Below are positions 1 to 57,848 of a DNA stretch of 64,000 bases, piece by piece (the first letter of the stretch is position 1; every line of letters starts with the position of its first letter). Both the position numbers and the translations under genes were made by a program. The notes under the pieces are model-generated. The model saw only the letters and a list, made by a program, of their open reading frames with translations, searched no databases and had not been told where the DNA came from. The DNA comes from Cenarchaeum symbiosum A. GTDB lineage: Archaea > Thermoproteota > Nitrososphaeria > Nitrososphaerales > Nitrosopumilaceae. Location: NCBI GenBank assembly GCA_000200715.1, contig DP000238.1:1908849-1972848 (forward strand), given 5' to 3'.

Positions 1-716
1 TTTTTCCTGGGCATTGTTCTCTTGGACCGGGGAAGCGGCCCAGCTGTGCGCGCTATGCGGGCCAGTGCGGCTGCATCGACGAACGGCGCGATTCCACGGG
101 CCACCGCCGATATGGCCCCGGGCCGCGACTCTATCGCGGGGACCAGCCCTAGGTGCCTGGAGGGAAGGGAGAAGCGCGCATCCCTGGGAATACATCCCAC
201 AACGGGGACCCCCAGGGGCTCGAGCGCATCCCTGCAGATTTTCTCGTGTCTTTTGCTGCCCAGCCTGTTCAGTATTATGCCGCGTATGCAGTGGTTCCTG
301 CGGAACCTCATAAAGCCGAGCGCCGTCGCCGCTACAGAGCGCCCCGCCCTGCTCGCGTCGAGCACCAGTACCACGGGTGCACCAAGTATTGAAGATACGT
401 GGTGCGTGCTCGATACCCCTGAGCTTCCCGCGCCGTCATAGTAGCCCATGACGCCCTCTACCAATGATATGCCGGGGCCCGAGTTTCTGACAAAGCTGTT
501 CAGGACTCCGCCCCGGCCCATGAGCCAGACGTCGAGGTTGATAGCCTCTCTGCCCGAGGCCGCCGAGAGGTGGCCGGGATCTATGTAGTCGGGCCCCACC
601 TTGAACGGCTGCACCGTATGCCCGGAGCCCGCCAGCGCGGCTATCACGCCGCAGGATACCGACGTCTTTCCGACTCCGCTAGATGAGCCGGCCAGGACCA
701 GCCTGGGTATACGCAA
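1..716 (-). CDS. cobB: Cobyrinic acid a,c-diamide synthase, C-terminus cut by window edge
   Basis: This enzyme amidates the a and c side chains of cobyrinic acid using ATP and glutamine, a corrin-ring step of cobalamin synthesis. The visible N-terminal part begins RIPRLVLAGSSSGVGKTS, a P-loop of the CobB/CobQ type, followed by FKVGPDYIDPGHL and LVEGVMGYYDG, which are typical of CobB. There is no ATG; I chose TTG at 716 because a minus-strand TATA-like box (741-750) lies about 27 bases upstream, the usual leaderless spacing here. About 238 residues are visible and the reading frame runs off the left edge, so the C-terminal glutamine amidotransferase domain cannot be checked. It is divergent from the first giant surface gene. 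cobO at 13.5 kb and the cob operon at 53.7 kb act in the same pathway. Confidence 0.88.
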   Translation of the reverse strand, partial: MRIPRLVLAGSSSGVGKTSVSCGVIAALAGSGHTVQPFKVGPDYIDPGHLSAASGREAINLDVWLMGRGGVLNSFVRNSGPGISLVEGVMGYYDGAGSSGVSSTHHVSSILGAPVVLVLDASRAGRSVAATALGFMRFRRNHCIRGIILNRLGSKRHEKICRDALEPLGVPVVGCIPRDARFSLPSRHLGLVPAIESRPGAISAVARGIAPFVDAAALARIARTAGPLPRSKRTMPRK

Positions 717-49748: not shown

Positions 49749-50447
49749 ATGGGAAGGTTCGAGTATGCGCTTGTGGCCGCGATGGCACTATTAATCTCGG
49801 GCACACTCGGGCTGATTTTACAGTCCCCGGATGCGGTCATGGAGGAATCAAGAGTGGATCTTGGAAGGACCGGCGTGCCCGGCGGGCTCACATTTGCAGC
49901 GCCGGATGATGTCCCCGCCCCGCGCATGGCCCCTATTGCAACAGATGACGCCATGCCGGAACCCGACGGGGAGCCGCGCTTCGTCGAGCTCGGCGCGACG
50001 GACAGCCTGATGATCGGCGAGGGCGGCCCGGCACCCGTGGAAGCTGCAGACGAGACCGATATGTCCGATGGAATGGAGGAGGCCGCCATGTCCGATGGAA
50101 TGGAGGAGGCCGCCATGTCCGATGGAATGGAGGAGGCCGCCATGTCCGATGGAATGGAGGAGGCCGCCATGTCCGATGGAATGGAGGAGGCCGCCATGTC
50201 CGATGGAATGGAGACGGGCAGCGAAGAGATGGCCGTCACCATAGAGGCGTCCGATACGGTAGAGCTTGAGGACGGGGGCTCTGAGGGGACCGTTGATGCA
50301 GAATTCGACGGCCGGACTACCGCCATAGATGTCTCCGATACGGTAGAGCTTGAGGACGGGGGCTCTGAGGGGACCGTTGATGCGGAATCCGATGACCGGA
50401 CTACCGCCATAGAGGCATCCGATGCGGTAAGCGTAGACGACGGCTGA
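49749..50447 (+). CDS. Anchored acidic repeat protein of unknown function
   Basis: A 232-residue protein with one N-terminal hydrophobic segment (YALVAAMALLISGTLGLIL) and an otherwise very acidic, probably disordered outside part. Residues about 105-155 are nine-residue repeats MSDGMEEAA (five perfect and one partial). Two longer repeats follow (about 165-225) sharing SDTVELEDGGSEGTVDAE and RTTAI. Met-rich acidic repeats could bind metal, for example copper, but this is a guess. It has no similarity to known families that I can see. Confidence 0.75.
   Translation: MGRFEYALVAAMALLISGTLGLILQSPDAVMEESRVDLGRTGVPGGLTFAAPDDVPAPRMAPIATDDAMPEPDGEPRFVELGATDSLMIGEGGPAPVEAADETDMSDGMEEAAMSDGMEEAAMSDGMEEAAMSDGMEEAAMSDGMEEAAMSDGMETGSEEMAVTIEASDTVELEDGGSEGTVDAEFDGRTTAIDVSDTVELEDGGSEGTVDAESDDRTTAIEASDAVSVDDG
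50061..50213 (+). repeat. 27-bp perfect tandem repeats in coding sequence
   Basis: Units begin at 50061, 50088, 50115, 50142 and 50169, with a partial unit at 50196. They are identical at the DNA level and encode MSDGMEEAA. The multiple-of-three period keeps the frame whatever the copy number, so length variation is likely between strains. Confidence 0.9.
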
Positions 50448-52509: not shown

Positions 52510-53589
52510 CTAGATTTTGCCCTTTTTGAGCAGCATCTCCGCCAGCAGGACCGCCCCCTTGCCAGAGCCCATCTTTTTGTTGTGGGAGAAGAGCATGTAC
52601 TTGAGGCCGTTATCGAATAGGTCTTCTTTTTCAACGCGGCCTATAGTGGTGGTCATGCCGTCGCCTACCGGCCGTTCGAGCCTGGGCTGGGGCCGTGTGG
52701 GGTCCTCGTGGAATGCATAGTATTCGTCAGGGGCCGACGGCAGGCCGGCAACCGAGCTGTTCCTGTTTGATTCGTCGAATAACGCCTTTGCCTTTGCCGG
52801 GTCTATCTCATCTTCGGTCTCGACGGCCACTGACTCTGTGTGGCCGTCCAGGATGGGCACCCTGGTGCACGTGGCGCTGACCTTTATGTCGGCGTCTATT
52901 ATCTTTCCGTCCTTTAGCTTGCCGAGTATCTTGCGGGTCTCTATCCTTACCTTTTCTTCTTCTTTCGGGATATAGGGGATGATATTGTCGGTTATGTTCA
53001 TTGCCGATACCCCGGGGGACCTGCCGCCGCCGGATATCGCCTGCATGGATGTCATCCTTACTTTTTTGGCGCCGTACTTTTCGTATATCGGCTTTAGCGT
53101 TATGGCAAGGCCCGTGGTTGTGCAGTTGGGGAGCGGGGCCACCCAGCCCTTCCAGTTCCTGTTCTTTTTTTGCGTATCGAGCAGGTCGGCCTGCTCGTCG
53201 TTTATGCCGGGGATCAGTATGGGGACGTCTTCTTCGTACCTGTACGCGGAGCTTGTGGATATTACGGGGAGGTCTGCCGCGAACTTTGTCTCTATATCCC
53301 GGGCGGCGCCCGATTCTATCGCGGAGAAGACAAGGTCGAGCTGCGAGACATCCACCTGGTCTATGGATTTTACCATCATGTCTGTGATGTACGGGGGGAT
53401 CTCGCCGCCTATCTCCCAGCCGACTATGCCAGAATCATCCCTGATCGCGTCAATGTACTTTTTGCCCGCCGAGCGCTCCGATGCGGCTATCTGGGTGACA
53501 GTAAACCACGGGTGATCCTCCAGCGACTGGACGAACTCCTGGCCCACTGCCCCGGTGGCGCCCAGTATGGCGACCCTCTTCTTTTCCAT
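52510..53589 (-). CDS. asd: Aspartate-semialdehyde dehydrogenase
   Basis: It reduces aspartyl phosphate to the semialdehyde, the branch point to lysine, threonine and methionine. ATG 53589 gives 359 residues beginning MEKKRVAILGATGAVGQEFV (NADP loop). LVFSAIESGAARDIE, the active-site PLPNCTTTGLAITLKPI (Cys about 153) and TSMQAISGGGRSPGVSAM follow, of the archaeal/fungal subfamily. The catalytic His region is CTRVPILDGHTESV. The open frame continues to 53823 but that part is antisense to the cob operon. A TATA box at 53611-53620 is 27 bases away. Confidence 0.95.
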   Translation of the reverse strand: MEKKRVAILGATGAVGQEFVQSLEDHPWFTVTQIAASERSAGKKYIDAIRDDSGIVGWEIGGEIPPYITDMMVKSIDQVDVSQLDLVFSAIESGAARDIETKFAADLPVISTSSAYRYEEDVPILIPGINDEQADLLDTQKKNRNWKGWVAPLPNCTTTGLAITLKPIYEKYGAKKVRMTSMQAISGGGRSPGVSAMNITDNIIPYIPKEEEKVRIETRKILGKLKDGKIIDADIKVSATCTRVPILDGHTESVAVETEDEIDPAKAKALFDESNRNSSVAGLPSAPDEYYAFHEDPTRPQPRLERPVGDGMTTTIGRVEKEDLFDNGLKYMLFSHNKKMGSGKGAVLLAEMLLKKGKI

Positions 53590-53610
53590 GGGGCCCGATC
53601 CATTCCATGA

Positions 53611-53620
53611 ATTAATATTC
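53611..53620 (-). promoter_or_regulatory. TATA box of asd
   Basis: GAATATTAAT on the minus strand is centred about 27 bases before ATG 53589. ACTAAATC at about 53653 on the plus strand may serve the divergent cob operon. Confidence 0.5.
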
Positions 53621-53680
53621 CTTTTTGAGTCCCGCCTCCCATACCAAAACACACTAAATCGGCGGTATGTTATACAGCCC

Positions 53681-54745
53681 GTGAAGCTGCACCGGGAGAT
53701 CACCTCGCACGAGCCGACGGTCCACGGCGGGCCGTACTCTGCGGGAGCACTGCCCGGGCTGGTCGACTTTAGCTCAAACGTATCACCCGCTGGCCCCCCT
53801 CCTTCTGTCGGGCGCAGCCTCAAGGGGATGATGAACAGGGTGTCTGTCTATCCGGATCCCGCCTCATCATCACTGCGGGCCCGGCTTGCAAGGTATGCGG
53901 GCCTCCGTATCCGGCAGATAACAGTAGGAGGCGGCGCCACCGCGATAATACACGACTTTTGCAGGGCGTTTCTCCGGGGGAGAAAGACGCTTGTGGTATC
54001 GCCCACGTTTGGCGAGTACGAGGCTGCCGCCCGCCTGGCGGGGGCCCGCGTCAGTCGCTTTGAGGCGATGGAGGTTGGCGCGGAGACAGAAAAACTCGCG
54101 GGTGCCATACCCCGCGGAGGGTGCCTATTCCTATGCAATCCGAACAATCCAACGGGGGAGCTGCTGTCCAAAGAGCAGGTGGGGAGGCTGGTCCGGGCGG
54201 CCGCCCGCAGGTCCGCGCTGGTCATGGTAGACGAGTGCTTTATCGAGCTGTCCCGGAAGCCGCGAGAGAGCATACTGGATATGGCGGGCCGCCTGAGTAA
54301 CATGCTGGTCCTCCGGTCGCTTACAAAGTCGTTTGGCCTGGCGGGGCTGCGAGTAGGGTATGCGGCAGGCCCGCAGGGGATCATAGACGTGCTGGAAAAG
54401 GTAAGGATCCCGTGGAGCGTCTCGGGGCCCGCCCAGGATATGGCCGAGGCCGCTTTATCGTGCACCTCCCACCTTGTATCTGCACGAAAGATGATATTCA
54501 AAGAGGCCGGGTTTTTGCGCCGCGGCATATCCGGGATAGACGGCTTTGAATGCCTGGATACCTCGGCGAATTTTATGCTGGTTAGGACGCGGCTCCGGGG
54601 CTCTGCAGTGCGGGACAGGCTGATCAAGCGCGGCATACTTGTGCGCGACTGTTCCAGCTTTGGCATGGACGGGCACTACATCCGGATAGCCGTCAGGACG
54701 AGGCGCGAGAACAAGATGCTGGTGGAGGCGCTAGGTTCCATATGA
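53681..54745 (+). CDS. PLP-dependent aminotransferase-like enzyme, probable threonine-phosphate decarboxylase
   Basis: From GTG 53681 the protein has 354 residues in the HisC/CobD group. VKLHREITSHEPTVHGGPYS and LVDFSSNVSPAGPP resemble CobD, which decarboxylates threonine phosphate to the aminopropanol linker of cobalamin. Motifs: YPDPASSSLRARLARYAG, CNPNNPTGELLS, MVDECFIELSR, and the Schiff-base lysine in RSLTKSFGLAGLRVGYAAG (about residue 219). Its position as first gene of a cobalamin operon with a 4-base ATGA overlap to cobQ favours CobD over histidinol-phosphate aminotransferase; sequence alone does not separate the two. Confidence 0.82.
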   Translation: MKLHREITSHEPTVHGGPYSAGALPGLVDFSSNVSPAGPPPSVGRSLKGMMNRVSVYPDPASSSLRARLARYAGLRIRQITVGGGATAIIHDFCRAFLRGRKTLVVSPTFGEYEAAARLAGARVSRFEAMEVGAETEKLAGAIPRGGCLFLCNPNNPTGELLSKEQVGRLVRAAARRSALVMVDECFIELSRKPRESILDMAGRLSNMLVLRSLTKSFGLAGLRVGYAAGPQGIIDVLEKVRIPWSVSGPAQDMAEAALSCTSHLVSARKMIFKEAGFLRRGISGIDGFECLDTSANFMLVRTRLRGSAVRDRLIKRGILVRDCSSFGMDGHYIRIAVRTRRENKMLVEALGSI

Positions 54746-55572
54746 GCAGCATAATGGTCCAGGGGACCTCTTCGGGCGCGGGCAAGTCGGTCCTGGTGAC
54801 GGCCCTCTGCAGGATATTCTCCGACATGGGCCTGTCCGTAGCTCCGTTCAAGTCGCAGAACATGTCAAATTTGTCGTATACTGGGGATGGCTTTGAGATA
54901 TCGCGCGCGCAGGCCATCCAGGCAGTTGCAGCAAGGGCCGAGATAACCCCGGACATGAACCCTGTCCTGCTCAAGCCCAGGGGAGGAAAAAGCACTGTCT
55001 ATCTGGGGGGCAGGCGCCGGGGTGTGATGGATGCAGCAGAATACTATCGGATTGCACGGCGCGAGCTGCTGCCCCCAGCGTTGTCATCCCTTGCAAGGCT
55101 GCGGCGTGAACATGATGTCGTGGTCATAGAAGGGGCGGGCTCGCCTGCAGAGATAAACCTGCGCGGCCGAGACATAACCAACATGGCGATCGCATCGAGG
55201 ATAGCCTCGCCTGTAATACTGATCACCGATATAGAGAGGGGCGGCTCCTTTGCAGCACTTGTGGGAACGCTCTCGCTGCTCGAGGAGCGGCACCGGGAGC
55301 TGGTCCGCGGGCTCGTATTCAACAAGTTCCGCGGCGACGAGGGGATCCTGCGGCCCGGCTTTGCAAGGCTACGGAGAATAACCGGAAAGCGCGTGCTCGG
55401 GGTCATACCAAAGGCAAAACTGGGCATACCAGAGGAAGATTCTCTTGATGCATCACCCGGGGGCACCCCGTGGGACGGCCGGCCCGGCACACTGGACAGG
55501 GAGATAGGAAAGCTCGCATCTCTGGTAGAAAAGAGCCTCGACATGCGGGCCATCGGGGGGATGATAAAATGA
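54742..55572 (+). CDS. cobQ: Cobyric acid synthase lacking the glutaminase domain
   Basis: CobQ/CbiP amidates four side chains of adenosylcobyrinic acid diamide. The first 230 residues are a normal ATP-binding domain: MVQGTSSGAGKSVLVTALCR, VAPFKSQNMSNLSY, SRAQAIQAVAARAEITPDMN, VLLKPRGG, VVIEGAGSPAEINLRGRDI, NMAIASRIASPVILITDIER and VFNKFRGD. Family members run to about 480 residues with a glutamine amidotransferase domain carrying a Cys-His pair. Here the protein stops at 276, after LDREIGKLASLVEKSLDM, and cbiB begins 4 bases before the end. No fragment of the missing domain follows, so this is not a simple frameshift. Ammonia may be used directly or supplied in trans. Confidence 0.9.
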   Translation: MSSIMVQGTSSGAGKSVLVTALCRIFSDMGLSVAPFKSQNMSNLSYTGDGFEISRAQAIQAVAARAEITPDMNPVLLKPRGGKSTVYLGGRRRGVMDAAEYYRIARRELLPPALSSLARLRREHDVVVIEGAGSPAEINLRGRDITNMAIASRIASPVILITDIERGGSFAALVGTLSLLEERHRELVRGLVFNKFRGDEGILRPGFARLRRITGKRVLGVIPKAKLGIPEEDSLDASPGGTPWDGRPGTLDREIGKLASLVEKSLDMRAIGGMIK

Positions 55573-56531
55573 TCGAGCCGCTGCTCGCCCTTGCAATAGC
55601 AATATCCCTGGATATGGCGGCAGGCGACCCGAGGAGCGCCCTGCATCCTACCGCATGGACGGGGCGCCTCATCGGAAGAATCATCCCGTACGGGAAGACT
55701 GGCTCGGCCGCCTCCGAGAAAATATGGGGGGCGCTATTTGTCACGGGGGTCACGGCCCTGGTGGTATTGTGCATAGCCGGGTTTTACATGGGCGTGGGCC
55801 TGCTGGCGGCACTCCCCGCCGCGGTATTATCTGTAGCCGCCGGCGCCGTCCTCCTCAAGAGTACAATAGCAATCCGGGGCATGGAACGGCACGCGCTCGA
55901 TGTGCTGCGCCCGCTTGAAGAGGGCAATATAGGTGCAGCAAGGGAGCGCCTCTCCATGATAGTAAAGCGCGATACCTCGAACCTTGACAGGAGGCGTATT
56001 CTCTCGGGTGTTCTAGAGAGCGTCTCGGAGAATACAGTAGACGGCGTGACGGGGCCGCTGTTCTATTTTGGAATATTCGGGCTCTTTGGCGCCTTTGTAT
56101 ACAGGACGGTCAATACCTTTGATTCCATGATAGGATACAGGAGCGGCATGTTCAGGAACCTTGGGTGGTTTGCGGCCTATTCGGATAGAATACTCAACTA
56201 CCTGCCTGCAAGGCTTACAGCACTGGTCATGGTGATAGCATCGTTCCTATTGCGGAATGACTGGAGGGGCTCGTACAGGGCGATACTCCGGGACAGCTCC
56301 AGGACAGAGAGCCCCAACGCTGGATACCCGATGGCGGCTCTGGCAGGCGCCCTCGGCACCGCGCTCGAAAAGCCCGGCCACTATACGATAGGGGATGGCG
56401 CAGAGCCCGACATATCCCATGTAAGGTCGTCCATATCGATAATGAAGGCCACCTGCCTGCTGTTCTGTGCACTTGTTACAGCGCCAATGGTGGCCGTCCT
56501 CTCGTACATCGGGTGGTGGATTCATGTTTAA
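55569..56531 (+). CDS. cbiB: Adenosylcobinamide-phosphate synthase
   Basis: It couples the aminopropanol (phosphate) arm to adenosylcobyric acid. The 320 residues form a membrane protein beginning MIEPLLALAIAISLDMAAGD with AAGDPRSALHPTAWTGRLIG (the GDP-x(5)-HP-x-x-x-G-x-x-I-like motif). AIRGMERHALDVLRPLEEGN, MIVKRDTSNLD, GVLESVSENTVDGVTGPLFY and NTFDSMIGYRSGMFRNLGW are strongly conserved in CbiB/CobD. ATGA overlaps with cobQ before and an 8-base overlap with cobS after show tight coupling. Confidence 0.96.
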   Translation: MIEPLLALAIAISLDMAAGDPRSALHPTAWTGRLIGRIIPYGKTGSAASEKIWGALFVTGVTALVVLCIAGFYMGVGLLAALPAAVLSVAAGAVLLKSTIAIRGMERHALDVLRPLEEGNIGAARERLSMIVKRDTSNLDRRRILSGVLESVSENTVDGVTGPLFYFGIFGLFGAFVYRTVNTFDSMIGYRSGMFRNLGWFAAYSDRILNYLPARLTALVMVIASFLLRNDWRGSYRAILRDSSRTESPNAGYPMAALAGALGTALEKPGHYTIGDGAEPDISHVRSSISIMKATCLLFCALVTAPMVAVLSYIGWWIHV

Positions 56532-57252
56532 GGGCGCAGGCTCGGTCATATCGTTTCTGACGATACTGCCCGCGGGGGCAGGCAGCCTGGATGTGATAGC
56601 ACGGAACATGCATCTTTTCCCGCTGGCCGGCATGGCGATAGGGCTGATCGCAGGCGGCATAGGCCTTGGGCTATCGGAGGCTGGCGCCGACCCGCTGGTG
56701 GTCGCTTTGCTGGTGGTAGCCGTAATAGCCGTGATCACGGGGATACACCATACCGACGGCCTTGCGGACTTTGCCGACGGCATGATGGCAGGCGGGGACA
56801 AGGAGCGCAAGATATCTGCCATGCGGGATTCGTCGGTGGGCTCTGCCGGCGTGACGGCGGTGGTCCTGTATATCGTGGGAATGGTGGTGGCACTCTCGCT
56901 TGCCGGCGGCACCGAGCTGCTCAAGGCGGTGCTATTCGCCGAGGTGGCGGCAAAGCTGTCCATGGTGTTGATGGCGTGGAGGGGCCGCACGGCTGCCCCC
57001 GGTTCTGGCTCGCCGTTTGTATCGGCCATGAAAGGCGGAAGAAGGGCCGCATTTGCTGTAATAATATCCGCGATACCGCTTGTCATTCTGGGGGGCTGGG
57101 CCGGCCTGGCCGTGCTGTCGACCGGCGTTATATCGTCTGTCATCTTGGTATCCCTGTCGTCGAGAAGCTTTGGGGGTATAACCGGCGATGTAATGGGTGC
57201 TGCAAACGAGCTGACCCGGCTTGCTTCTGTCCTGGTCTTTGTATCGATATGA
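56524..57252 (+). CDS. cobS: Adenosylcobinamide-GDP ribazoletransferase (cobalamin synthase)
   Basis: It joins GDP-cobinamide to alpha-ribazole (or its phosphate), the last step of cobalamin assembly. The 242 residues with several membrane helices begin MFKGAGSVISFLTILPAGAG. The signature is VITGIHHTDGLADFADGMMA with GGDKERKISAMRDSSVGSAG (about 75-115). It overlaps cbiB by 8 bases and cobY by 4 bases. Confidence 0.95.
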   Translation: MFKGAGSVISFLTILPAGAGSLDVIARNMHLFPLAGMAIGLIAGGIGLGLSEAGADPLVVALLVVAVIAVITGIHHTDGLADFADGMMAGGDKERKISAMRDSSVGSAGVTAVVLYIVGMVVALSLAGGTELLKAVLFAEVAAKLSMVLMAWRGRTAAPGSGSPFVSAMKGGRRAAFAVIISAIPLVILGGWAGLAVLSTGVISSVILVSLSSRSFGGITGDVMGAANELTRLASVLVFVSI

Positions 57253-57848
57253 TGGGAATGATAATGGCCGGGGGCCGCGGAACCCGGATGGGCCATACAG
57301 AGAAGCTTCTCCTGGGCGGCACCCCCATGGTCCTCCGCGTGCTGGATGCTCTAAAACAGTCGGGCTGCTTTGGTGGGATAGCAGCAGCTATCAGCCCCAA
57401 CGCGCCAGATACGGCGCTGCTCTTGGAGGAGAGAGGAGTGCGCGTTATAGAGACCGGCGGCAGCGGCTATCCGCAAGACCTCAACAGGGCCCTGTCAGAT
57501 CTTGAGGGGACGGTGATGGCCGTACCCGGGGACCTGCCACTTTTGGACGCGCAGGTAATACGCGTGTTAGTTGATAGGTGCCGGCAGGGCGACTCCTGGA
57601 CGAGCTTTGTCGTATCGGAGGGATTTCTTTGCACAATGGGCCTGCGGGGCGGCTATTATACAGAGTACAACGGGAAGAGGTGCGCGTACACGGGCGTATC
57701 CGTTGTAGACGCGGGAAAAGCGGGGCCCTTGCAGGAGATAGGCGAGCGCCTCGAGATGGTAAACGATCCAAGGATTGCATTCAATGTGAATACGGTACAA
57801 GAGTACCGCATATACGAATCTATGCGGTCAGGAACTCGAACTTTTTGA
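57249..57848 (+). CDS. cobY: Adenosylcobinamide-phosphate guanylyltransferase, archaeal type
   Basis: It transfers GMP to adenosylcobinamide phosphate; archaea use CobY in place of bacterial CobU. The 199 residues start MMGMIMAGGRGTRMGHTEKL, the nucleotidyltransferase loop, with GGTPMVLRVLDALKQ, VIETGGSGYPQDLNRALSDL, VMAVPGDLPLLD (metal-binding Asp) and CAYTGVSVVDA. ATGA overlaps link it to cobS. Its 3' end overlaps the convergent L44e gene by 29 bases. Confidence 0.9.
   Translation: MMGMIMAGGRGTRMGHTEKLLLGGTPMVLRVLDALKQSGCFGGIAAAISPNAPDTALLLEERGVRVIETGGSGYPQDLNRALSDLEGTVMAVPGDLPLLDAQVIRVLVDRCRQGDSWTSFVVSEGFLCTMGLRGGYYTEYNGKRCAYTGVSVVDAGKAGPLQEIGERLEMVNDPRIAFNVNTVQEYRIYESMRSGTRTF

Follow-up and report, generated by a model that had tools for sequence, protein, structure and literature searches.

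Missing or inactivated glutaminase domains in the cobyric acid synthases of ammonia-oxidising archaea, and ammonia as a putative nitrogen donor

How would a cobyric acid synthase (CobQ) that carries no glutamine amidotransferase (GATase) domain obtain the nitrogen for its amidations? The question is raised by a gene in the window, that is, the whole stretch of 64,000 nucleotides of Cenarchaeum symbiosum A DNA that was analysed. This cobQ gene, assigned by frame reading and by matches to PRK00784 and Pfam profiles, occupies positions 54742-55572 of the forward strand as an uninterrupted frame of 276 codons, and is the only CobQ copy in a single-contig genome of 2,045,086 bases.

Architecture of the window gene

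The product passed the cut-off of the NCBIfam cobyric acid synthase model PRK00784 (319.1 bits, cut-off 273) through a match confined to profile positions 2-238 out of 480, and scored below the cut-off of the full-length model TIGR00313 (273.7 bits, cut-off 309.9). Its P-loop, MNPxLLKP and EGAGSPAEIN motifs align with those of full-length CobQs. Pfam identified CbiA/AAA_26 and returned no match to GATase_3, and the GATase with catalytic Cys and His that a strict assignment to EC 6.3.5.10 calls for is missing. The absence of the domain, as claimed in an earlier note on this DNA, is therefore real. Scores fell far below the cut-offs of PRK01077 (34.4 bits, cut-off 254), TIGR00379 (32.2 bits, cut-off 261.4) and the dethiobiotin synthetase (BioD) model TIGR00347 (21.8 bits, cut-off 83.3), and CobB is encoded by a separate gene.

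The gene is embedded in a cobalamin locus on the same strand. A class I/II aminotransferase gene (53555-54745; PF00155, 175 bits; true start possibly further in) precedes it with a four-base overlap at 54742-54745. It is followed by cbiB (cobD; 55569-56531; PF03186, 286 bits), which shares the ATGA at 55569-55572 with cobQ (the four-base overlap given in the earlier note), by cobS (56467-57252 as frame coordinates, start uncertain; PF02654, 151 bits), and by a cobY-type NTP transferase gene (57249-57848, start approximate; PF12804, 58 bits). The 5' part of cobB, on the reverse strand, is cut by the left window edge (1-716); the whole gene (L001:1453-2793, minus strand, on G000:C1) encodes 446 residues with an intact GATase including Cys and His, and the idea that CobB too might lack the domain can be dismissed.

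The earlier note had also described a protein ending early at 276 residues; the length is correct, but the implied C-terminal truncation is not, since the domain has been lost from within the protein and residues ~248-275 correspond to the C-terminus of full-length CobQs. Three segments were distinguished, all on the forward strand: a synthetase (ATP-dependent amidoligase) domain (residues 3-237, 54748-55452; pLDDT mostly >90), a junction or linker where full-length CobQs carry ~200 GATase residues (residues 233-247, 55438-55482), and the retained C-terminal helices (residues 248-275, 55483-55566; modelled as 248-265 and 268-275). In alignments, short CobQs end with the same helix as full-length ones. 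A hidden Markov model (HMM) built from the C-terminal tails of 90 intact full-length CobQs gave 32 of 37 short tails, the window protein's among them (19.8 bits), a higher score than any of 925 shuffles; 36 of 37 exceeded the 99th percentile of the shuffled scores. A model built instead from the linker and the beginning of the GATase, the residues that a simple truncation would have left, lifted none of the 37 tails past that percentile, and simple truncation was rejected. The GATase has thus been lost by internal in-frame excision, with the C-terminal helices kept.

The AlphaFold2 model of the window protein (pLDDT 89.6, pTM 0.90) is confident in the tail (92-97) and falls below 50 only at residues 233-243. 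Its closest solved fold is that of dethiobiotin synthetase 1dbs (Z 19.9, rmsd 3.3, 218 aligned residues, model 1..271 on chain 1..224), itself a stand-alone enzyme devoid of GATase; however, the identity over the alignment is 17%, only the fold is shared, and the BioD reaction, carboxylation of a diamine, uses a different substrate. A search by sequence for a solved CobQ synthetase structure found none, the best matches being BioD with E 0.14 and worse. The last helices recur in the model of a full-length euryarchaeal CobQ (L121), at 455-466 and 469-475, after the GATase, and on these models the domain would therefore behave as an insert ahead of the final helices of the synthetase fold, whose removal would leave a complete, stand-alone BioD-like enzyme.

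CobQ forms across lineages and their link with amoA

At E 1e-20 or better, CobQ was found in 115 of 121 sampled genomes of the window's family (f1, which we take to be Nitrosopumilaceae), and 111 of the 115 matches lie in unbroken frames of 273-328 codons, the short form being counted here by frame length alone except in genomes whose loci were read directly. Two longer frames (G001 and G048) result from upstream read-through, with CobQ parts of about 281 and 310 residues, and in G080 (L046) and G092 (L045), one of which is a single-contig genome, cobQ is broken by a stop or frameshift in otherwise normal relatives. Among 73 CobQ-bearing genomes chosen outside the family, the short form was present in 45/45 genomes of f3 (presumably Nitrososphaeraceae; 283-342 codons) and in 5/5 of the Nitrosocaldus-type genus g23 of f2, which became 6/6 once all f2 and f5 members of the collection had been read; a locus named Ca. 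Nitrosocaldus schleperae (L173) also has the g23 form. A long CobQ (456-634 codons) is encoded in f2 genus g31 (G197), in f5 (G183, joined in the full reading by G562, the only other f5 member of the collection), and in families f6-f9 (12/12), f20 (7/7) and two more distant ones (2/2). Of 53 loci, 48 have the aminotransferase ahead of CobQ and 48 have CbiB behind it, the exceptions being four f20 loci in which CobQ stands alone, L037, where CbiB is missing after CobQ, and L076, where an aminotransferase was not seen; the order aminotransferase-CobQ-CbiB is identical in short, dead and full-length loci.

Some further forms were noticed in this survey. In a GC-rich relative (L037, from G048; frame 960-2396) the CobQ tail is longer and its C-terminal helix motif apparently repeated about three times. 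In other families of the phylum, CobQ-like matches lying in frames of just 312-322 codons (G546, G427 and G467) could be additional GATase-less forms or contig ends. Family f4 of the same order (e.g. G173 and G216) gave no CobQ match even in genomes called 100% complete, and presumably does not synthesise vitamin B12 de novo.

For ammonia oxidation, archaeal AmoA from L097 was used as the query, as Pfam AMO (PF02461) misses archaeal amoA: it matched 1 of 300 genomes, in a match adjoining the AmoA later chosen as query. With this query, 48 of 80 chosen genomes matched, all of them in f1, f2, f3 and f5. Forty-seven genomes have both amoA and CobQ, in the short form in 45 and in the long form in two (G197 and G183), while the CobQ-bearing genomes tested from amoA-less families all have the long form (21/21). 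A physical absence of the domain in every ammonia oxidiser is thereby refuted; because the long CobQs of G197 and G183 have dead residues, loss of function replaces physical loss as the correlate of amoA. Three genomes of ammonia-oxidiser families (G048, G227 and G310; 87-95% complete) run counter to this, having CobQ devoid of GATase and no amoA match, which probably reflects assembly gaps. Neither gene was found in G093 and G224, and G186 has amoA and no CobQ at the threshold used. In G198 the AmoA matches are fragmented over different contigs, into two of 185 residues and two of 66, which may be a pair of gene copies that are interrupted or were split by assembly.

Inactivation of the long CobQs was read against a census of 95 full-length rows, comprising 79 of 80 contig-search loci (the short L173 being left out) and 16 from the proteins' own class. 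Four rows, representing three distinct proteins, are dead: those of G197, G183 and G562, the last encoded identically (100%) in isolate SAT137 (L103). G562 belongs to the same family as G183, and amoA status covers G183 and G197. Cys and His are the established catalytic pair of this GATase type in the CobQ-like GatD (available text of PMC5871853). The catalytic His is missing in 3/3 distinct long proteins of f5 and f2-g31: G183 and G562 have Tyr in its place in the YxHG(I/L)F motif, G197 has a deletion spanning it, and none of the three retains the YEIH histidine. In G197 the nucleophile Cys has also given way to Asp, and the nucleophile position is followed by Glu-Gly in the three proteins and by Gly-Gly in the others. 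The Cys and both His are kept in 91/91 other full-length rows, with Glu after the nucleophile position confined to the dead ones. Dead domains also evolve faster than intact ones: G183 and G562 share 80.1% identity in the synthetase and 56.1% in the GATase, versus 68-78% in the GATase of four intact pairs at 79-86% in the synthetase. Pfam still reports GATase_3 in these proteins, with 73-75 bits for f5 and 44 for G197, so that domain annotation alone hides the inactivation.

Taken as sequences, then, the CobQs of all amoA-bearing archaea examined have lost either the GATase catalytic residues or the whole domain, and relatives devoid of amoA keep it intact. The short form is not a local peculiarity; it extends to sampled ammonia-oxidising archaea at large, the exceptions, which belong to two deep lineages, being long but dead.

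The nitrogen donor

In its synthetase domain, its place in the cobalamin operon and its C-terminal helices, the ammonia-oxidiser CobQ is an ortholog of the enzyme described as CobQ/CbiP (EC 6.3.5.10; PRK00784, TIGR00313), from which it differs in that the GATase is absent or, in G197, G183 and G562, dead. Its nitrogen would consequently not come from glutamine by the usual route. We consider it probable (roughly 0.6) that the short CobQ is still an active cobyric acid synthase, but one dependent on ammonia rather than glutamine. Its synthetase domain would bind ATP and presumably phosphorylate, one after another, the four carboxyl side chains still free in adenosylcobyrinic acid a,c-diamide; cytoplasmic ammonia would then attack the acyl phosphate, and no glutamine would be hydrolysed. 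Free ammonia would thus be the nitrogen donor, the acyl-phosphate chemistry of the family would be unchanged, and a ready ammonia supply may have made the glutaminase dispensable.

Known systems offer partial parallels. MurT/GatD, the lipid II amidotransferase, has a CobQ-like glutaminase, and its dead C94G version amidates with free ammonia at pH 8.5, although its synthetase is a Mur ligase and the GatD subunit is required even with ammonia (as far as the accessible part of PMC3266927 goes). Human carbamoyl phosphate synthetase 1 (CPS1) likewise has a dead glutaminase domain (Cys to Ser) and takes free ammonia (available sections of PMC4655335), but it is an unrelated enzyme, and its dead domain is still in place where the majority of ammonia-oxidiser CobQs have shed theirs. 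Since both systems take ammonia with dead glutaminases, free ammonia would be the most economical nitrogen source for CobQ, and its use, which the earlier note had suggested, appears to be the best-supported mechanism.

We searched for glutaminases that could take over the lost function. GATase_3 matches in the window genome are CobB, PdxT and PurQ, the latter two named from sequence and neighbours, and, weakly, an orphan class I GATase of 226 residues (L004:1105-1782, minus strand, at ~153 kb of G000:C1; PF00117, 85.6 bits) that falls below every NCBIfam equivalog cut-off. A profile of the intact CobQ GATase, run over 79 genomes, scored 367-434 bits in 5/5 intact controls, 153 and 160 in the f5 pair and 57 in G197. 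The profile was also used to look for the separate glutaminase that the earlier note had thought might serve the enzyme. It revealed no free CobQ-type glutaminase in 71 genomes belonging to ammonia-oxidiser families (the window's and 70 more), where the best score among the matches listed was 43.4 bits and the best matches examined were CobB. The catalytic Cys and His of CobB are kept in 19/19 ammonia oxidisers read (18 of 30 returned loci and the window genome's own). A dedicated CobQ-type glutaminase is therefore absent, other glutaminases persist, and free ammonia is favoured over a dedicated separate glutaminase.

Less likely, yet the most serious competitor, is that CobQ is fed in trans by a separate glutaminase, the candidate donors being the CobB GATase, within a CobB-CobQ complex, and a free-standing class I enzyme of the type encoded by L004. 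The conserved CobB residues and the L004 product, assigned to no curated equivalog, are compatible with it, and GatD/MurT provides a precedent of a CobQ-type glutaminase working as a separate subunit (accessible text of PMC3266927 and PMC6085368). Against feeding in trans, no GATase gene adjoins cobQ in the gene order common to short, dead and full-length loci, and the dead intermediates retain a folded-looking domain that could obstruct docking. The reading based on free ammonia has its own difficulties: the retention of the CobB glutaminase and the presence of PurQ and PdxT indicate that no general switch to free ammonia has occurred, and ammonia-oxidising archaea live at low external ammonia. 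MurT alone, in the absence of GatD, was moreover inactive with any nitrogen donor (available text of PMC3266927).

It is improbable that the short CobQ has given up complete cobyric acid synthesis for another or a partial amidation, or that the cells salvage corrinoids instead. The tie to the reaction comes from similarity of sequence, and the TIGR00313 cut-off is missed; but synthetase motifs and gene order are conserved and no other CobQ exists in the genome. We take Nitrosopumilus maritimus to be an ammonia-oxidising archaeon of the window's family. It releases cobalamin, a structure that needs these amides (PMC8281238, in the part available), and the amidations must therefore be made. An artefact of the window genome (frameshift, misassembly or pseudogene) has a negligible probability; the broken frames of G080 and G092 and an origin of the reference that is presumably metagenomic would speak for it, but the unbroken frames of the family, two of the remaining four being read-through, and the short form in every f3 and f2-g23 genome refute it. 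Hence the claim that cobQ is no pseudogene remnant stands, and the alternative of full-domain orthologues beside a damaged copy here is excluded, by the same architecture in many independent genomes.

Order of events and significance

In a tree of the synthetase domain (56 rows), the 32 short and three dead CobQs form one group (support 100/99) and all 21 full rows fall outside it. Glutaminase function thus probably disappeared in one event on the stem leading to the ammonia oxidisers, and removal of the domain came afterwards. Within the CobQ tree the short group needs two changes, and one excision origin was recovered in 14% of bootstrap trees. At least two excisions would be the simplest reading because of the family label of G197, which places it in one family with Nitrosocaldus; the gene tree alone does not force it. 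The broader scenario, in which all ammonia-oxidising archaea have an ammonia-only cobyric acid synthase, the switch took place on the stem that gained ammonia oxidation, and inactivation was followed by clean removal, at least twice if the G197 label is right, seems to us evenly poised between true and false. In the CobQ tree, the tie of glutaminase loss to ammonia oxidation comes down to a single evolutionary event.

PMC4303638, which used TIGR00313 as the cobQ model, proposes that ammonia-oxidising archaea are an important source of vitamin B12 in aquatic environments. Their CobQ is listed as cobQ in PMC9530722 and PMC6964070, whose accessible portions carry no remark on the domain; the latter reports cobQ as undetected in two such genomes holding the neighbouring genes, for which our guess is the cut-off of a full-length model. 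With TIGR00313 (cut-off 309.9), other short CobQs scored 302.4 (L067 of f3, below) and 320.9 (L071 of f2, above), so that surveys relying on full-length models can miss the gene. Our literature search, with subscription papers mostly outside its reach, found no published report of a missing or dead CobQ GATase in ammonia-oxidising archaea; the enzyme family is known, and its lineage-wide glutaminase loss with surviving intermediates is apparently unreported. If the nitrogen donor of this four-amidation step has changed throughout the lineage, B12 synthesis would hinge on cytoplasmic ammonia, and CobQ could serve to test biochemically and directly whether these cells, living on traces of ammonia, hold usable free ammonia. 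The CobQ series would also document, as few cases do, the death of an enzyme domain ahead of its deletion.

Elsewhere in the window, a frame of 232 codons on the forward strand (49749-50447) contains about six tandem copies of the unit AMSDGMEEA.
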